Virus record (IMG/VR): IMGVR_UViG_3300037011_000581
Span: 1 to 44,920 of that record
Strand: one strand, 5' to 3'
DNA length: 44,920 bases
DNA from: a virus
Below, piece after piece: positions 14,899 through 43,498 of the stretch (within the stretch, counting starts at the first letter, position 1; every line of letters starts with the position of its first letter). The translations under genes were made by a program, and so were the position numbers. Under the pieces are notes generated by a model. That model was not told the DNA's origin. It did no database searches and worked only from the letters and a program-made list of their open reading frames with translations.

Positions 14899-14978
14899 GT
14901 TAAAAACACGTACATGGAAACACTGGCCTCGTTGCTGCGGTCTGTGGCGGTGGCAATCGGGATGAGTGTCCAGGTCAC

Positions 14979-15017
14979 GAGGCGCTGTTGGTGCACAGCG
15001 CCTCTTTCGTTTTTTTT
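14979..15017 (+). terminator. Rho-independent terminator after the early operon
   Basis: A perfect 10-bp stem, GAGGCGCTGT/ACAGCGCCTC, with loop TGGTGC is followed by TTTCGTTTTTTTT. It ends the transcript of the PRTRC and PAPS-reductase genes. The stem sequence is reused at 33682-33711. Confidence 0.9.
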
Positions 15018-15083: not shown

Positions 15084-15112
15084 TTGACAATATACGTATA
15101 TTGTGATATACT
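15084..15112 (+). promoter_or_regulatory. Sigma70-like promoter with palindromic spacer
   Basis: TTGACA (15084-15089), a 17-bp spacer and TATACT (15107-15112) are present. The perfect palindrome CAATATACGTATATTG (15088-15103) fills the spacer, a classic place for a repressor operator. The gap 14899-15165 holds only this promoter, the terminator before it and a small hairpin at 15120-15141 (TCAACC/GGTTGA) just after the predicted start of transcription. Confidence 0.85.
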
Positions 15113-18664: not shown

Positions 18665-18925
18665 ATGTTGGTGCGCCGGACGGGGGCCAGGCGCGGGGGG
18701 TCGCCGACGTGGTACGTGCAGGCGGATGCGGACGTCGAGCGGGAGGCGGTGCGGCGCGGTCTGCTGGCGGAGACTTTTCCCGACGACATTTGGAGGCGCT
18801 ATGTTTTGGGCTGGGGGTACGGGAGCCGTGCGGAAGCAGCGACGGCGCTGGACGTGTTGCAGCCGGTGGTGGCTGAGGCGCTGCGCCAGTTGGCCGGTTT
18901 AGAGCGGCCATTGGAAATCACGTAA
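18665..18925 (+). CDS. Hypothetical protein between lysis and packaging genes
   Basis: The 86-residue protein has a weak ribosome-binding site. It is basic at the N-terminus and helical afterwards (VEREAVRRGLL...RAEAATALDVLQPVVAEALRQL). No family is recognised. The 76-bp gap after it contains nothing evident. Confidence 0.55.
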   Translation: MLVRRTGARRGGSPTWYVQADADVEREAVRRGLLAETFPDDIWRRYVLGWGYGSRAEAATALDVLQPVVAEALRQLAGLERPLEIT

Positions 18926-30265: not shown

Positions 30266-31282
30266 ATGACCTGGTCGTTTATGGGTTTTCACATGCCGCG
30301 TGACGGGTACGGGTACGCGACGATCAAGATTGCGCAGGCGCTGCAGCGCGAGAGCAGCAGCGTCGGCGTGGTGGATATGCGGGAAGTGGGCGGGGGGTTC
30401 GGGGACTCGAAGCTACGGGCATGGAGTTGTCTCGGCGACGCGCTGGCGCTCTGTACGCCGGATTGGTTGCGGGCGATTGGGACGACCAGGTTGGTCAATT
30501 ACACGATGTTCGAGGCGACCCGGCTGCCCGTCGGGTGGGTGAATTTGATCAATCGGTACGCGCAGGTGTGCGTTGTGCCGTGCGAGTGGAACAAGACGGT
30601 GTTTGTCGAAAACGGGGTGACGGCGCCGGTGCGGGTGGTGCGCTGGGGGGTGGACCCGGCAGACTATTGGCTGCTGGATCGGGCGGATCACGGCAGCAGG
30701 CCGTACACGTTTCTGTGGAGTGGGACACCGGACAGGCGCAAAGGATGGGACATTGTATACAAAGCGTTCTGGCTGGCGTTCCGGGATAGTCCCGATGTTC
30801 GGCTCAAGATGCACTTCCGCTCGCTGCCGCGAGGGGTGAAGGGATGCCGTGATGCGAATGTGGAGATCGTCCACGGGCTAGTGGGGAGGACGGCGCTGCG
30901 AAGGATGCTGGCGGATGCTGATGCGTTCGTCTTTCCGTCGCGGGGGGAGGGGTGGGGGCTGCCACCCCGTGAGGCGGCGGCGACGGGGCTGCCGGTGATC
31001 GCTACGGATCAAGGCGGCCTGGCTGAGGAAATCGCCTCGTGGGCGCTGCCGCTACGGGTGGCCGGAAAGAGTCCCGCAGATTACGGTTTCTGGGAGTGGG
31101 GGGAAATCGGGGACTGGGTTGACCCTGACGTTGAGCACTGCGCGGAGCTGATGCGCTGGTGTTTCGAGAATCGTGAGGACGCGGCCAGACTGGGAGAGGC
31201 GGCGGCTGATTGGATCGCGCAGAAAGCGACCTGGTCGCGGACGGCGCGAGGGCTGATCGAGGTGATGGGAGGTGACGCATGA
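30266..31282 (+). CDS. GT4-type glycosyltransferase
   Basis: The 338-residue protein has the donor-binding core of family GT4: VFPSRGEGWGLPPREAAATGLPVIATDQGGLAEE (EX7E-like), with an earlier LWSGTPDRRKGWDIVYKAF. It would move a sugar from a nucleotide sugar to an unknown acceptor. Its insertion between the tail terminator and tail tube genes suggests glycosylation of a virion protein or of a host surface, though DNA-base glycosylation cannot be excluded. Confidence 0.85.
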   Translation: MTWSFMGFHMPRDGYGYATIKIAQALQRESSSVGVVDMREVGGGFGDSKLRAWSCLGDALALCTPDWLRAIGTTRLVNYTMFEATRLPVGWVNLINRYAQVCVVPCEWNKTVFVENGVTAPVRVVRWGVDPADYWLLDRADHGSRPYTFLWSGTPDRRKGWDIVYKAFWLAFRDSPDVRLKMHFRSLPRGVKGCRDANVEIVHGLVGRTALRRMLADADAFVFPSRGEGWGLPPREAAATGLPVIATDQGGLAEEIASWALPLRVAGKSPADYGFWEWGEIGDWVDPDVEHCAELMRWCFENREDAARLGEAAADWIAQKATWSRTARGLIEVMGGDA

Positions 31283-31563: not shown

Positions 31564-32097
31564 ATGGGCGCAGACTCTTATGGAAACGATCCGTTTGGTC
31601 TGTACGATGTCAAACTGACCAACATTGGCGGAACGGTGGTGCAGGTTGACTTGCCGGCCGCTCAGACGCTCAAGTTTACCGAGCGAGTTAAAAGCGGCGA
31701 ACTGATGGGTGACGACGCGATCAAGGCCGTGGCGGCTTACACTGAGGCTGTCGAATGGTCGCTGGAGGCTGGCGGGATCAGCCTGGAAGCCTATGCGCTG
31801 ATCACTGGTCGCACGGCGACGGAGAGCGGGACGACGCCGACGCGCACCAAGACCTTGACGGGCCGGGCTGGGGCGCACTATCCCTATTTCAAGATCTATG
31901 GCAAGGTCATTGGCTCTGGCACCGACGACGTCCACTGCAAGATTTTCAAGGCGAAAGTGACCGGCAACGTCGAGGGGACGTTCAAGGGCGGCGAGTTCTG
32001 GGTGACGTCCTGCTCCGGGATCGCTGTGGACGACGGGACGAACCGCATCTATGAGTTCGTTGAAAACGAGACGGCCACCACGCTGCCCGCGTCGTAA
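31564..32097 (+). CDS. Major tail tube protein
   Basis: The start lies behind GAGGAGGAT. The 177-residue protein is beta-rich, with LYDVKLTNIGGTVVQVDLPAAQTLKFTERVKSGELMGDD and HYPYFKIYGKVIGSGTDDVHCKIFKAKVTGNVEGTFKGGEFWVTS. It ends with a strand-rich region, typical of siphovirus tube proteins that stack as hexameric rings. Its position just before frameshifted tail chaperones and the tape measure supports this. Confidence 0.8.
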   Translation: MGADSYGNDPFGLYDVKLTNIGGTVVQVDLPAAQTLKFTERVKSGELMGDDAIKAVAAYTEAVEWSLEAGGISLEAYALITGRTATESGTTPTRTKTLTGRAGAHYPYFKIYGKVIGSGTDDVHCKIFKAKVTGNVEGTFKGGEFWVTSCSGIAVDDGTNRIYEFVENETATTLPAS

Positions 32098-32176
32098 CCT
32101 GGGCGGCCTGGCCGCTGCGAGGATGCGCAGGCTGGGCGCGAATCACGCGCTGGCTGTTGCGCGGAGGAGGAGTGTC

Positions 32177-32575
32177 GTGAATCTGAGCGAGTGGCGCGCA
32201 GGGCGGACGACGGAGATGACGCTGCCCAGTGGCCTGGCCGTCAAGATCAAGCCGGTGACGGTGCTGGACCTGGCCATGGGCGGGCAGATTCCAGCGCCAT
32301 TGATGGCAGGGCTGGAAAAGGTGATCGGGGCGGGGGACTCGGCCGAGTTCTCGTTGGCGACGTTCTCCGAGCTGGCGCCGGCAATCAATGCACTGGTGAA
32401 GGCGGCCGTGGTTGATCCACCGGTCGCCGATCAGCCCGACGACGAGCACCTGGGCGTGGAGGAGCTGTCGGCGATAGACCGCTTTGCCATTTTCAAGCAA
32501 GTCCACCAGGCGTCCGGGGCGGGCGACCTGGGGATGTTTCGCCAGGGACAAGCGGAACCTGTGGCTGCTGCATAG
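32177..32575 (+). CDS. Tail assembly chaperone, N-terminal product
   Basis: GTG 32177 follows GGAGGAGGAG; longer in-frame starts into the tube gene are rejected. The 132-residue protein (MNLSEWRAGRTTEMTLPSGLAVKIKPVTVLDLAM...) resembles gpG-type tail assembly chaperones. The reading frame ends at 32575 while the next frame already carries conserved C-terminal sequence. A +1 slip at TTT-C (32537-32540; Phe tRNA re-pairs UUU to UUC) would extend it. Confidence 0.75.
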   Translation: MNLSEWRAGRTTEMTLPSGLAVKIKPVTVLDLAMGGQIPAPLMAGLEKVIGAGDSAEFSLATFSELAPAINALVKAAVVDPPVADQPDDEHLGVEELSAIDRFAIFKQVHQASGAGDLGMFRQGQAEPVAAA

Positions 32576-32843
32576 CCTGGGAGCGGCGTACAGTTGCAGG
32601 CCGTCAGCGATCCTGGGGGTAGAGGATTCGTGGGCGGCGTACCAGGTTGATCTGGCGTGTCTGCGCATCGGGCGGCAGGCCGAGGAGGCGCTGGCCAATC
32701 GCGGAAAGCGAGCGGCCGGTGATGTGCTGGCGGCGGTCCTGGGCGCTCCCCCTGGGGGGGAAGCGCCTGGCGGCCGGCGGTTCCGCGATCCACGGGGACG
32801 GGTGAAACGGCGCATGGCGATCCCGAAAAGTGGCATCTGGTAG
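32538..32843 (+). CDS. Tail assembly chaperone, frameshift extension
   Basis: This frame has no convincing start of its own. It carries NLWLLHSLGAAYSCRPSAILGVEDSWAAYQVDLACLRIGRQAEEALA, the pattern of the second tail chaperone part (gpT-like). It lies in the +1 frame relative to 32177-32575, so expression requires a +1 (or -2) shift. The proposed TTT-C slip site gives ...GDLGMF-ARDKRNLW... . Other slip positions in the overlap (32484-32575) are possible. Confidence 0.7.
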   Translation, partial: FARDKRNLWLLHSLGAAYSCRPSAILGVEDSWAAYQVDLACLRIGRQAEEALANRGKRAAGDVLAAVLGAPPGGEAPGGRRFRDPRGRVKRRMAIPKSGIW

Positions 32844-32870
32844 GCGCGATAATATGAGTTATGCGACGAG
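32843..32870 (+). promoter_or_regulatory. Dispersed 28-bp site S8
   Basis: The core is ATAATATGAGTTAT with GGCGCG and GCGACGAG arms. It begins at the last base of the chaperone stop and ends 9 bp before the -35 box at 32880. Confidence 0.87.
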
Positions 32871-32879
32871 AATCACCGG

Positions 32880-32908
32880 TTGACACCGGCAAGAGGGTGT
32901 GGTAGAAT
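32880..32908 (+). promoter_or_regulatory. Sigma70-like promoter inside the tail operon
   Basis: TTGACA (32880-32885), a 17-bp spacer and TAGAAT (32903-32908) are present. The expected start is near 32915, four bases before the first arm of the pseudoknot-like leader. Site S8 sits directly upstream. Confidence 0.85.
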
Positions 32909-32918
32909 GTTAACAACA

Positions 32919-33083
32919 GAGCCTCACAACTCTAAGCGCGAGAGGATTTTTTATTGCCAAGTGCATAACGCCGGGCGTGGTGAGCCACGTTCGGTCTGTT
33001 GTCGCCAAAGTGCTGCGACGGCAAAAACCTCCCGCCCGAGTTGTGAGGCTCCCGGTAGGCAATTCCGTCGCAGCACTTTGGCG
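32919..33083 (+). ncRNA. Pseudoknot-like structured leader RNA
   Basis: Two perfect, interleaved inverted repeats occur. Arm A (32919-32932, GAGCCTCACAACTC) pairs with A' (33038-33051). Arm B (33003-33021) pairs with B' (33065-33083) over 19 bp. The order A-B-A'-B' is that of a pseudoknot. CTCACAA next to the start codon (33111-33117) is complementary to TTGTGAG in A', so A' could pair alternatively with the translation start. The element lies between a promoter and the two small genes at 33118 and 33406. It may be a cis-regulator or a free small RNA. Confidence 0.75.
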
Positions 33084-33117
33084 TTTATTCCCAAGACGGG
33101 GAAAAGGAGTCTCACAA

Positions 33118-33375
33118 ATGTTAGTCGGAAATGTCAACGCAGGTGGCGCGGATGGGATCATGCTGCGCCTGGAGGATCTGAAGGCTCTGTCGGCGGCCTG
33201 CCAGACCCAGTTGCGCGAGGTGCTGATCCGTCCCGATCAGGAGCAGGAGGCGGCGCTCGTCGAGTCCTTGCAGGCATTGTTGGCAGCTACCGCTTTGAAC
33301 GTGGAATTGCTGCGGGACGTCCCTGCAAGAAAGAAGCGGGTGAAGGTGGCCGGTTTGACGGCGAAACCGATCTGA
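33118..33375 (+). CDS. Moron small protein 1
   Basis: ATG 33118 follows AAAAGGAG. The 85-residue helical protein (MLRLEDLKALSAACQTQLREVL...LVESLQALLAATALNVELLRDVP) is paralogous to the next gene. Both have a strand, then two helices with Ala-Ala-Cys in the first. No family is recognised. It is controlled by the promoter at 32880 and the structured leader rather than by the tail operon alone, so it may be expressed in the lysogen. Confidence 0.65.
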   Translation: MLVGNVNAGGADGIMLRLEDLKALSAACQTQLREVLIRPDQEQEAALVESLQALLAATALNVELLRDVPARKKRVKVAGLTAKPI

Positions 33376-33405
33376 CGCCAGCCGGACAAGAAGGGACTGG
33401 CGCAA

Positions 33406-33648
33406 ATGAAGACTGTCGAAAAAACCAGAGCCGGTGTGAAGGTCAACCTGAGCTATGCAGAGGTAAAGGCATTGGCGGCGGCCTGCAGGATCCGTTTGGA
33501 AGAGATAGCCGATACGGGCCAGGCGGAGGAGGTGGCGCACGTCAAGGATCTGCAAGAGAATTTTGCAGCGTTGGCCTGGTTGATGGAAGCGTTGAAGAGC
33601 ACCCCCGGCAGCACGTTCACGATACCAGAAAAGATGGTCGTCATGTAA
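33406..33648 (+). CDS. Moron small protein 2 (paralogue)
   Basis: The 80-residue protein (LSYAEVKALAAACRIRLEEIA...VKDLQENFAALAWLMEALKSTP) aligns along most of its length with the 33118 product, showing an old tandem duplication. A strong hairpin follows. Possible roles include superinfection or host-interference proteins; no evidence for any one of these is visible. Confidence 0.65.
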   Translation: MKTVEKTRAGVKVNLSYAEVKALAAACRIRLEEIADTGQAEEVAHVKDLQENFAALAWLMEALKSTPGSTFTIPEKMVVM

Positions 33649-33681
33649 CGGTTGCCGCCGGACAATTGAATAGTCGGAAAG

Positions 33682-33711
33682 ACGAGGCGCTGCGCGTTCA
33701 CAGCGCCTCGT
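33682..33711 (+). terminator. Strong hairpin ending the moron
   Basis: ACGAGGCGCTG (33682-33692) and CAGCGCCTCGT (33701-33711) form an 11-bp perfect stem. It is not followed by a T run, so termination would be partial or factor-dependent. The stem matches that of the true terminator at 14979. Confidence 0.6.
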
Positions 33712-33739
33712 TGCGCGCCCAGGGCCGGGAGGTGTGGTT

Positions 33740-39805: not shown

Positions 39806-40509
39806 CGCGGGATCATCTTCCAGGGAATCCGCTGGATCGCATAGATGATTTGGAGAGGAGGCTCGCTGAACTGGAACGGTTCGCGCTGGTCGGCGCGACG
39901 GGGGCGGGGTCGAATCTGGACGCGGACATGTTGGACGGGTATCACGCGGGAAGCGCTGCTAATACGGTTCTCCTGCTGGATGCGTCTGGCAACGCGATCC
40001 TCACTGTCGGAGACATTCGGACACCAGGAGGAATCTATGCCGGCGCGACAAATACCGCACCGGGGGCGGGAGAGATTCATTACACCAGCAACTTGAGGCC
40101 AGTGCGGGGGGGGAGTACCTATACGGCGTATCCAGAGGTCTTGTTGAGTTCTCCTCTAACTAGCACGTCGTGGGATGGTGATTCGTACAGCTCCAACCCA
40201 AGCGGAACACCTATTAAGATTGATCTCTCGACCGTGTTTGGTGTCCCTGCAAATGTCAAGGGGATAAAGGTGTCCAGCGCGATTCGTGACAGCGCCAGCG
40301 CCACAACAGAGTGCTATTTTGTCCTCGGGCCAGATACCACTACCGCAAACAGACCGCACTTTCGTTGTAGTGGATTGACAAACGACAAGTTTGCAGCAGC
40401 GTCATTCGACGTTGTTTGCGACGCGAATGGGGACGTCTACTATACAGTAGTGGCAAGTGGCACAAATACGATGGATGTTTATTTGGCGATTTGGGGATAT
40501 TATTTCTAA
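39793..40509 (+). CDS. Tail fibre / receptor-binding protein
   Basis: The start is ATG 39793 behind GGAGGTGA. The 238-residue protein begins with a trimerising helix (LDRIDDLERRLAELERF), then NLDADMLDGYHAGSAA, the 'ADxLDGxHA' motif common in phage fibres. A beta-rich C-terminal domain ending IWGYYF follows. It converges with the minus-strand gene at 40506. Confidence 0.8.
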   Translation: MDGLTRDHLPGNPLDRIDDLERRLAELERFALVGATGAGSNLDADMLDGYHAGSAANTVLLLDASGNAILTVGDIRTPGGIYAGATNTAPGAGEIHYTSNLRPVRGGSTYTAYPEVLLSSPLTSTSWDGDSYSSNPSGTPIKIDLSTVFGVPANVKGIKVSSAIRDSASATTECYFVLGPDTTTANRPHFRCSGLTNDKFAAASFDVVCDANGDVYYTVVASGTNTMDVYLAIWGYYF

Positions 40510-40910
40510 AGCTTCCAATTTGTAACTGGTGAGGCGCGACGATGGGCTTCCTCCAGGTCCACTTGGGCGAGTTTGAGGTACCGCTGGACCATTTCTAGGG
40601 TGGTGTGGCCGAGCAGGTATTGAAGCTCGAAAACTGTTCCGCTGTTCCTTAGAAAGTTGATGGCGAAGGTGTGGCGAAATCGGTGAGGATGCGCTCCAGG
40701 TATGCCTGCTCGCGCACCCAATCGCTTGATCAGTCGAAGGAGGCCCGCTGTTGTAAGCGGGTCTCTTTTCGTTCCCACGATGAGGGGGTCGGTTGGGATA
40801 GAGTCGCTGATTGTGGCAATAGATAGCGAGGATCGTCTTGCCAACTCTCGCATCGTCCAACCACGACTATCTGTTTCCTGTACAAGCCAATCTGACAATT
40901 TGTCTGGCAT
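40506..40910 (-). CDS. Chimera: XRE repressor N-terminus joined to tyrosine-integrase C-terminus
   Basis: The only convincing minus-strand gene encodes 134 residues. Residues 1-37 are the first helices of an XRE/Cro-type HTH (LSDWLVQETDSRGWTMRELARRSSLSIATISD). From about residue 42 the sequence is the C-terminal part of a tyrosine recombinase: PLTTAGLLRLIKRLGARAGI, H76-x-x-R79-H80, H102 in LLGHTTLEMVQRY, and nucleophile Tyr111. The first catalytic Arg and the Lys are missing, so it should not be an active integrase. It either fuses two decayed lysogeny genes or is a repressor read into an attachment region. It is transcribed divergently from 41031. Confidence 0.75.
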   Translation of the reverse strand: MPDKLSDWLVQETDSRGWTMRELARRSSLSIATISDSIPTDPLIVGTKRDPLTTAGLLRLIKRLGARAGIPGAHPHRFRHTFAINFLRNSGTVFELQYLLGHTTLEMVQRYLKLAQVDLEEAHRRASPVTNWKL

Positions 40911-41279: not shown

Positions 41280-42641
41280 ATGGCTACGCCAACCCCCCTG
41301 CCCCTGCCTGGCCCTCTGGCCGTTATGGACGCGGTTATCTCCCCTGGGGAGGGGCCGCTGTTTGGCGTCTTCTCAGCAGAGGAGGATCTTTGGGCGGCCT
41401 GGGACCAGGCTCAGACAGCCTGGCTGGACTCGAAGCGTAGGAAATCCGGGCGTGATAATACGGCGAAGGCTTACGCGATGGCGGTGCGCCAATTCTTCTC
41501 CTGGGCTAAATGTCCCCCATGGCGGGTGTCGCCAATGCTGGCGCATGAGTGGGTGCGCGAGTTGGAAGCGGGAACGCCATGCGACGATACGGGGCAGTGT
41601 TTCGTAGGCAATGCCCGCTCAAAGGTGATCCACCGCCCAGGATGCCGGGCGATCCCTCTGGACAAGTACCAAAAGGCATATCCAACGCTTGATGCGGCGG
41701 TTTCGGACGGGTATCGGCTTTGCAATCAATGTCTTGAAGCCAAAACCAAACGAAGCCAGGCAACGATCAATGCCAAGCTTGCAGCACTCGGTTCGTTGTA
41801 CGAGTTTGTACAGACGGAATACGTGATGCAGACGTCAGAAGGCCGAATTGTGGCACTGTGGCCGGCCGATCGTATGAATCCGTTCCAGGCTGTTAAACGG
41901 GTCAAGATTTCTCCGTACGGCCGGGCCAGGTTTCCAACCTATGACGAGGTGTGCAAAATCATTGGCGCAATCAACAGGTCGTGTTTGGTTGGGAAACGCG
42001 ACTATGCACTGCTCTACACGATTGTGACGACGTGTCGAAGATTTAGCGAGATCATCAACCTGCGCTGGGGGGATTTGCGAGAACTGCCAGACGGTACTTT
42101 TTCCTTCTCCTATATCTACAAGGGCGGGGTGGAAAAGACCGATGTGTTGCAACGCGACTGCTATGATGCGATCTGCGAGTACCTGGTCGCTAGCGGGCGC
42201 AATCCAGCCACAATGAAGGCCGAGGATGCGGTATTCACGGCGCTGTACCAGGACCGGGTGTTGCGGATGATGCCAGGGTTATCGGCAGACGATAACTCAC
42301 CTTTGACGAACAAGAGCGCTAACCGTATTCTGAAAAAGTATGCCAAGCGGGTCGGCGTCGACCCAATCAGAGCACACATCCATGGCTTACGACATGCTGG
42401 GATGAGACAGCGTAAGAACGAGATGAAGAAAAACGGCTGTGTTGATTTAGAAGAGTTGATGAAGAAAGCCGCACATTCCAGCCTGGCCGTAACTCAGATT
42501 TATTTGGAGAATGTTCTTGATGATCCCAGTGATCCCGGGGGGAAAGCAGCAGCAGAGGCTTTCAAGCAAAAGCCGGGTCAACAACGACGGAGACGAACGA
42601 GAGCGGTTTCCAGTGCGCAGGACAAGCTGCCAGGGATGTGA
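41280..42641 (+). CDS. int: Tyrosine integrase with an Ada-type zinc insertion
   Basis: The 453-residue protein has a core-binding region (TAKAYAMAVRQFFSWA) and a C-terminal catalytic domain: Arg in TCRRFSEIINL, Lys in YKGGVEKT, H-x-x-R-H in IHGLRH, His in AAHSS and Tyr in LAVTQIYLE. Between the N-terminal helices, residues about 107-151 read CFVGNARSKVIHRPGCRAIP...AVSDGYRLCNQC, which matches the Ada-type metal-binding fold (GNxxSxxxHxxxC...GYxxCxxC). This insertion is unusual for an integrase. The enzyme should integrate the phage genome into the host. Confidence 0.85.
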   Translation: MATPTPLPLPGPLAVMDAVISPGEGPLFGVFSAEEDLWAAWDQAQTAWLDSKRRKSGRDNTAKAYAMAVRQFFSWAKCPPWRVSPMLAHEWVRELEAGTPCDDTGQCFVGNARSKVIHRPGCRAIPLDKYQKAYPTLDAAVSDGYRLCNQCLEAKTKRSQATINAKLAALGSLYEFVQTEYVMQTSEGRIVALWPADRMNPFQAVKRVKISPYGRARFPTYDEVCKIIGAINRSCLVGKRDYALLYTIVTTCRRFSEIINLRWGDLRELPDGTFSFSYIYKGGVEKTDVLQRDCYDAICEYLVASGRNPATMKAEDAVFTALYQDRVLRMMPGLSADDNSPLTNKSANRILKKYAKRVGVDPIRAHIHGLRHAGMRQRKNEMKKNGCVDLEELMKKAAHSSLAVTQIYLENVLDDPSDPGGKAAAEAFKQKPGQQRRRRTRAVSSAQDKLPGM

Positions 42642-43470: not shown

Positions 43471-43498
43471 ATTGTAGCACAGATTTTCTGTGTGTCAA
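43471..43498 (-). promoter_or_regulatory. Minus-strand promoter with palindromic spacer
   Basis: On the minus strand TTGACA (43493-43498) and TACAAT (43471-43476) are separated by 16 bp. The spacer carries the perfect palindrome CACAGATTTTCTGTG (43478-43492), the same design as at 15084 and 40968 but with a different operator sequence. Confidence 0.8.

Follow-up and report, generated by a model that had tools for sequence, protein, structure and literature searches.

The locus addressed here lies in the tail operon of an uncultured, temperate siphophage (IMG/VR virus record IMGVR_UViG_3300037011_000581; the whole analysed stretch of 44,920 nucleotides is referred to below as the window). It raises the question whether the non-coding leader that precedes a small gene of this operon, with its two interleaved inverted repeats, controls the translation of that gene or has a different role or origin.

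An insert between the chaperone and tape measure genes

The gpGT stop codon (32843) and the start of the tape measure gene (33734) are separated by 890 bp that contain, all on the plus strand, a promoter, some 200 nt of non-coding leader, a pair of small ORFs that are paralogues, and a hairpin resembling a terminator (Table 1). Related tail operons were located with the major tail protein and the tape measure protein as queries. In one of these, L010 (major tail protein 71% identical), 160 nt lie between the gpGT stop (10975) and the tape measure start (11136); in another, L006 (63% identical), the space between the gpGT stop (5546) and the tape measure gene (5756) holds an unrelated small ORF. 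No DNA or protein match to the insert was detected in the comparison loci L004-L010, and a search of its borders for terminal or target-site repeats, as the ends of a mobile element, revealed none that were convincing. The insert is thus found in one phage and is missing from relatives with the same flanking genes, and carries what is, judging by sequence, its own promoter (11/12, with an extended -10). Given its position, its absence from the relatives and this promoter, the assignment of the insert as a moron is well supported, its expression being a prediction. This agrees with the earlier note, which had placed a moron with its own promoter inside the tail operon; the slot, from gpGT to the tape measure gene, is the one that gp15 occupies in HK97. 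The annotated HK97 moron (AF069529) is likewise a small sense-strand gene in the order chaperone pair, moron, putative terminator, tape measure gene, but differs in that only about 58 nt separate gp14 and gp15, with no long leader and no crossing repeats, and in that it consists of a single gene.

Table 1. Features of the moron locus and of the flanking tail genes (positions in the window)
Feature	Position	Strand	Remarks
Major tail protein gene	31564-32097		siphophage tail operon
Tail assembly chaperone gene, gpG-like	32051-32575		overlapping second frame runs to 32843
Lineage-specific insert (moron)	32844-33733	+	same flanking genes in L010 and L006, insert absent
Predicted sigma-70-type promoter	32880-32908	+	TTGACA-17-TAGAAT, TG before -10; 11/12 consensus match
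Arm A	32919-32932	+	pairs perfectly with A' over 14 nt; near +5 to +18 of the predicted RNA
Hairpin C	32965-33002	+	11 bp (32970-32980:32985-32995) and 5 bp (32965-32969:32998-33002), G-U pairs included
Arm B	33003-33021	+	perfect 19-nt complement of B'
Arm A'	33038-33051	+	inside the 43-nt loop of B:B'; complementary to A or the SD region
Arm B'	33065-33083	+	UUUAUU (33084-33089) directly 3'
GGAGUCUCACAA, SD end and spacer	33106-33117	+	SD is AAGGAG, 33104-33109; 12 pairs with 33041-33052, one G-U
ORF1, 85 aa	33118-33375	+	no known family; two predicted helices; coding signal in this frame only
AGGCTCTGT in ORF1	33182-33190	+	complementary at all 9 nt to 32916-32924, the predicted 5' end
ORF2, 80 aa	33406-33648	+	paralogue of ORF1 (38% over 56 aa, E 3e-8)
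11-bp hairpin at insert end	33682-33711	+	stem identical to that of the terminator at 14977-15004; no T run
Tape measure gene	from 33734		siphophage tail operon

Both ORF1 and ORF2 show phage-like codon usage and are preceded by an SD-like sequence; a structure model of ORF1 has a pLDDT of 65. Searches with the two proteins yielded nothing above chance in phage records (best E of 1) or in Pfam, PHROGs, PADLOC and NCBIfam, and no relatives in viral contigs. The hairpin at the end of the insert shares its stem, ACGAGGCGCTG...CAGCGCCTC, with the hairpin at 14977-15004, an identity that is not expected by chance.

Some further features of these tail operons can be recorded here. The second frame that overlaps the chaperone gene (119 aa, within 32051-32843 of the window) lies in a different register and ends in SGIW, as in L006 and L010; the two frames resemble a gpG/gpGT frameshift pair that would, however, require a shift of +1 or -2 instead of the usual -1. 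A glycosyltransferase-like gene (about 340-380 aa, judged by eye) is located directly upstream of the major tail gene in the window (30266-31282) and in L010 (7896-9032). The L010 operon contains two major tail genes in tandem and belongs to a contig binned as a Kaiserbacteria genome, which is probably a phage contig placed there by binning. In L007 and L008, repeats of the TCAGCTAGTCAGC type between tail genes form hairpins of 20-28 bp.

A non-coding leader with crossing repeats

The promoter of the insert, called consensus in the earlier note, is near-consensus with an extended -10, and its 11/12 score puts it among only about five sites scoring 11-12/12 across the 44.9-kb phage; its -35 element sits within a small palindrome, CCGGTTGACACCGG. 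Transcription from it would start near 32915. The other near-consensus promoters of the phage are at 15084, 16908 and 40968 on the plus strand and at 43498 on the minus strand; the one at 15084 contains an 18-bp, operator-like palindrome, ACAATATACGTATATTGT.

When scored with a codon model built from the long genes of this phage, the leader is non-coding in all six frames (about -0.2 per codon), and the ORF1 frame reaches +0.31 per codon from 33118 onwards. Although this frame is open from 32914, an N-terminal extension of ORF1 into the leader is rejected given the non-coding codon usage in every frame, and the six-frame analysis likewise rules out a gene on the opposite strand. The G+C content drops from about 0.67-0.73 just upstream to 0.53-0.55 within the leader, and the z-score of the leader RNA fold against shuffles is -5.4. 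Rfam covariance models give no match at the gathering level anywhere in the window, and for the leader only two microRNA models, far below threshold, are reported, so that a known riboswitch or other Rfam family is rejected as well. No relatives of the leader were found in phages, plasmids or IMG/VR. A second strongly structured non-coding stretch of this phage (42660-42793, plus strand; fold z-score of -4.1) comes just after the integrase ORF (41280-42641) and forms a 21-bp stem (20/21) around some 92 nt; a T-arm-like GATGGTGCGAATCCATC precedes the 3' strand. Neither Rfam nor ARAGORN gives a match to this stretch, which could be a tRNA piece of the attachment site or a small RNA; the integrase ORF is adjoined on its other side by a C-terminal fragment of a tyrosine recombinase (134 aa, 40506-40910, minus strand).

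The two interleaved inverted repeats of 14 and 19 bp described in the earlier note are exact (A/A' 14/14, B/B' 19/19) and exceed the shuffle expectation: no perfect inverted repeat longer than 16 arose in 5000 dinucleotide shuffles of 32909-33130, and a crossing pair of at least 10/10 bp appeared in a single shuffle. The order A-B-A'-B' means that the repeats cross; across the window and the eight loci used for comparison (about 97 kb), perfect repeats of at least 11 bp cross nowhere else. The same note called the arrangement a pseudoknot; the crossing order indeed allows one, whereas folding restricted to nested pairs retains one of the two helices, B:B' or A:A', according to the point at which the RNA is cut. 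The motif GAGYCTCACAA occurs in exactly three copies, in A, in A' and in the start region of ORF1, and nowhere else in the phage, which dismisses a phage-wide operator family; nor does the phage contain a further sequence that closely copies or complements either A or B and could act as a partner in trans.

These properties bear on the main neutral explanation, namely, that the arms are products of recent inverted duplications (template switching), or else DNA-binding sites, and have no role at the RNA level. Such an origin would be compatible with the perfect Watson-Crick pairing of the main arms, which show no G-U pairs or compensated changes (hairpin C does include G-U pairs), and with the orphan status of an element whose motif is confined to this leader. 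However, two crossing repeats and a third copy placed on the SD, all in one 200-nt leader, are much to ascribe to a neutral accident, and the arms are not palindromic, unlike the usual operators; on balance, this explanation seems unlikely.

Predicted alternative pairings at the start of ORF1

The complementarity of A' to the CTCACAA next to the start codon is longer than the earlier note had claimed: 12 contiguous pairs (33041-33052 with 33106-33117) take in GGAG, the end of the SD, and the whole spacer as far as the ATG at 33118. A complement of this length was reached in 39 of 20,000 shuffles of the start region. At other starts of the phage, the longest complement within 150 nt upstream is mostly 6-10, but it is 12 at 18918 and 13 at 41280, so that this 12-pair match, taken singly, is not unique. 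Arm A repeats the start region in direct orientation, with 78% identity over 18 nt, and it is because of this resemblance of the RNA 5' end to the start region that a single A' fits both. The mutually exclusive pairings proposed in the earlier note thus exist as complementarity and include the SD itself, with estimated energies of about -25.6 kcal/mol for A:A' (14 bp) and -19.1 kcal/mol for A' with the SD region (12 bp).

The leader might instead protect the 5' end of the mRNA or be processed by RNase III, with A:A' tucking in the 5' end and B:B' serving as a cleavage or stability element, such that the level of the mRNA, not initiation, would be altered. The start of A about 4 nt from the predicted transcript start and the perfect 19-bp helix of B:B' are what one would look for in this case, but the 12-pair match to the SD is then unexplained, and we consider such a role unlikely. 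It is, in our estimate, quite unlikely that the leader is an attenuator or the source of a small RNA, in which B:B' followed by UUUAUU would end most transcripts near 33090 and release a structured RNA of about 175 nt, and A:A' would delay or alter B:B' to let the polymerase continue. Here, the 19-bp stem with TTTATT directly after it scores as terminator-like, and folds of the growing transcript have A:A' forming at end 33050, ahead of B' synthesis, which fits this scheme. Nevertheless, B:B' lacks the short-loop G+C-rich hairpin and long T run of intrinsic terminators: it has a 43-nt loop and is followed by TTTATTCCC, with a short T run and then CCC, unlike the clear intrinsic terminator of this phage (14977-15018), which combines a short loop with a long T run. 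The attenuator scheme, too, leaves the match between A' and the SD without a role.

The interpretation that we favour, with a probability of roughly 0.45, is that the moron leader acts in cis as a translational switch on ORF1, as suggested by the complementarities and energies. In the proposed mechanism, A would emerge first and capture A' once it is made; with A' held by A, the SD would be free and ORF1 translated, and B:B' would close around A' as a pseudoknot. When A is unavailable, being bound otherwise, trimmed or locally folded, A' in the B:B' loop would pair with GGAGUCUCACAA, covering the SD and the spacer and turning translation off. That the RNA is made, that the two pairings form in vivo, which way the switch acts and what might trigger it are predicted parts of this scheme. 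Where the earlier note spoke of the leader as controlling a moron, the mutually exclusive, SD-covering pairings hold on paper, and the regulation itself is what we infer from them.

The relative stability of the states was compared by summing duplex energies and adding a pseudoknot penalty of 9.6 kcal. With this penalty, A:A' together with B:B' is the best state for 3' ends from 33120 to 33160; when A is removed, A':RBS with B:B' ranks first in RNAs ending as far downstream as 33200. In longer RNAs, the order shifts, with A':RBS winning at 33200 and all states falling within about 2 kcal at 33250, mainly because the 5' end can also pair with 33182-33190 in the added coding sequence. The latter pairing has a high probability in the full-length nested fold, but as a signal it is weak, given that 148 of 5000 codon shuffles reach 9 nt. 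In nested ensembles of the full mRNA, the SD is roughly half open and neither A:A' nor A':RBS appears; each of these forms a pseudoknot with B:B', a configuration that such ensembles cannot display.

Taken together, the crossing repeats that beat chance, the fit of A' to both A and the SD region, the early formation of A:A' in folds of the growing transcript, the non-coding character of the leader and the strong promoter favour a translational switch, as does the timP mRNA, where such paired states, one of them pseudoknotted, can control translation (PMC11228461). The hypothesis is weakened by the lack of a detectable homologue, by a state preference that is not robust and by the comparably long complements at other starts.

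If the switch operates, a possible use would be to keep lysogenic expression from the moron's promoter apart from late read-through of the tail operon. A more specific version, in which the first 18 nt mimic the start region such that the moron is translated only from RNA of its own promoter and is silent in late read-through, appears improbable. In read-through RNA, A is indeed predicted to be occupied by the promoter-spacer sequence, but shuffled upstream sequence does the same in 62 of 300 and 16 of 150 cases, too often for this loss of A to carry any weight. Finally, an invertible DNA switch, in which B/B' recombination flips the 43-bp loop, turning A' into A with loss of both pairings, is very improbable: A' is flanked by perfect inverted repeats and the phage encodes tyrosine recombinases, but the segment is very short, no dedicated invertase adjoins it, and no other contig with arm B, nor a flipped copy, was found.

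Relation to known leaders and morons

A limited search of the open-licence literature identified no leader of this kind for a moron. The nearest functional analogue is the timP mRNA of the timPR type I toxin-antitoxin system. It switches between conformations that exclude each other, the translatable one containing a pseudoknot, and has a long structured 5'UTR in common with the phage leader, together with sequestration of the SD as proposed for the latter (PMC11228461). It differs in being encoded in an enterobacterial chromosome, in producing a membrane toxin under the control of the antisense RNA TimR, and in having a 7-bp pseudoknot with covariation (PMC11228461), whereas the phage leader has far longer perfect arms, a soluble-looking 85-aa product and no clear antisense promoter. 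In the aapA3 type I toxin mRNA, alternative anti-SD arms and a long-distance interaction likewise cover the SD, but they do so as hairpins and by pairing of the 5' and 3' regions, in contrast to the perfect repeats that cross within the phage leader (PMC6733600). The alternative pairings that cover the SD in type I toxin mRNAs thus have a counterpart here at the level of complementarity. The highest 19-residue hydropathy mean is 1.41 for ORF1 and 0.85 for ORF2, below the 1.6 usual for a membrane helix, and the best antisense promoter-like site (TTGACA-18-GAGACT, 33137-33108) scores 9/12 with a poor -10. Because neither protein has the hydrophobicity of a membrane toxin and the antisense site falls short of a convincing promoter, the leader is not classed as a type I toxin mRNA.

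The repZ leader of plasmid ColIb-P9, a classic pseudoknot switch, is reportedly driven by translation of a leader peptide together with the antisense Inc RNA. Neither a leader peptide nor an antisense RNA was identified in the phage leader, which distinguishes it from repZ. What the two leaders would have in common, going by the title of Asano and Mizobuchi (1998) as cited in PMC10724649, is the RNA pseudoknot as a translational switch.

Among morons, tab of the Pseudomonas phage JBD26 is an 83-aa orphan that has a promoter of its own within the late operon and is expressed in the lysogen; Tab demonstrates that a late-operon moron product of 80-90 aa can defend the lysogen and then must spare its own phage (PMC10884400). 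It differs from the present case in lying on the opposite strand, in the terminase region, and in that a protein, anti-Tab, rather than an RNA leader resolves the conflict with its own phage (PMC10884400). By analogy, Tab could provide a reason why separate control of a moron might pay, as distinct from evidence of such control in this phage.

The crossing arms would make an unusually clean natural pseudoknot switch, represented so far by one orphan example. Morons within structural operons risk being read through in lytic growth; if the proposed switch is real, a leader able to tell the moron's own RNA apart from RNA that reads through the operon would solve this problem without a protein.
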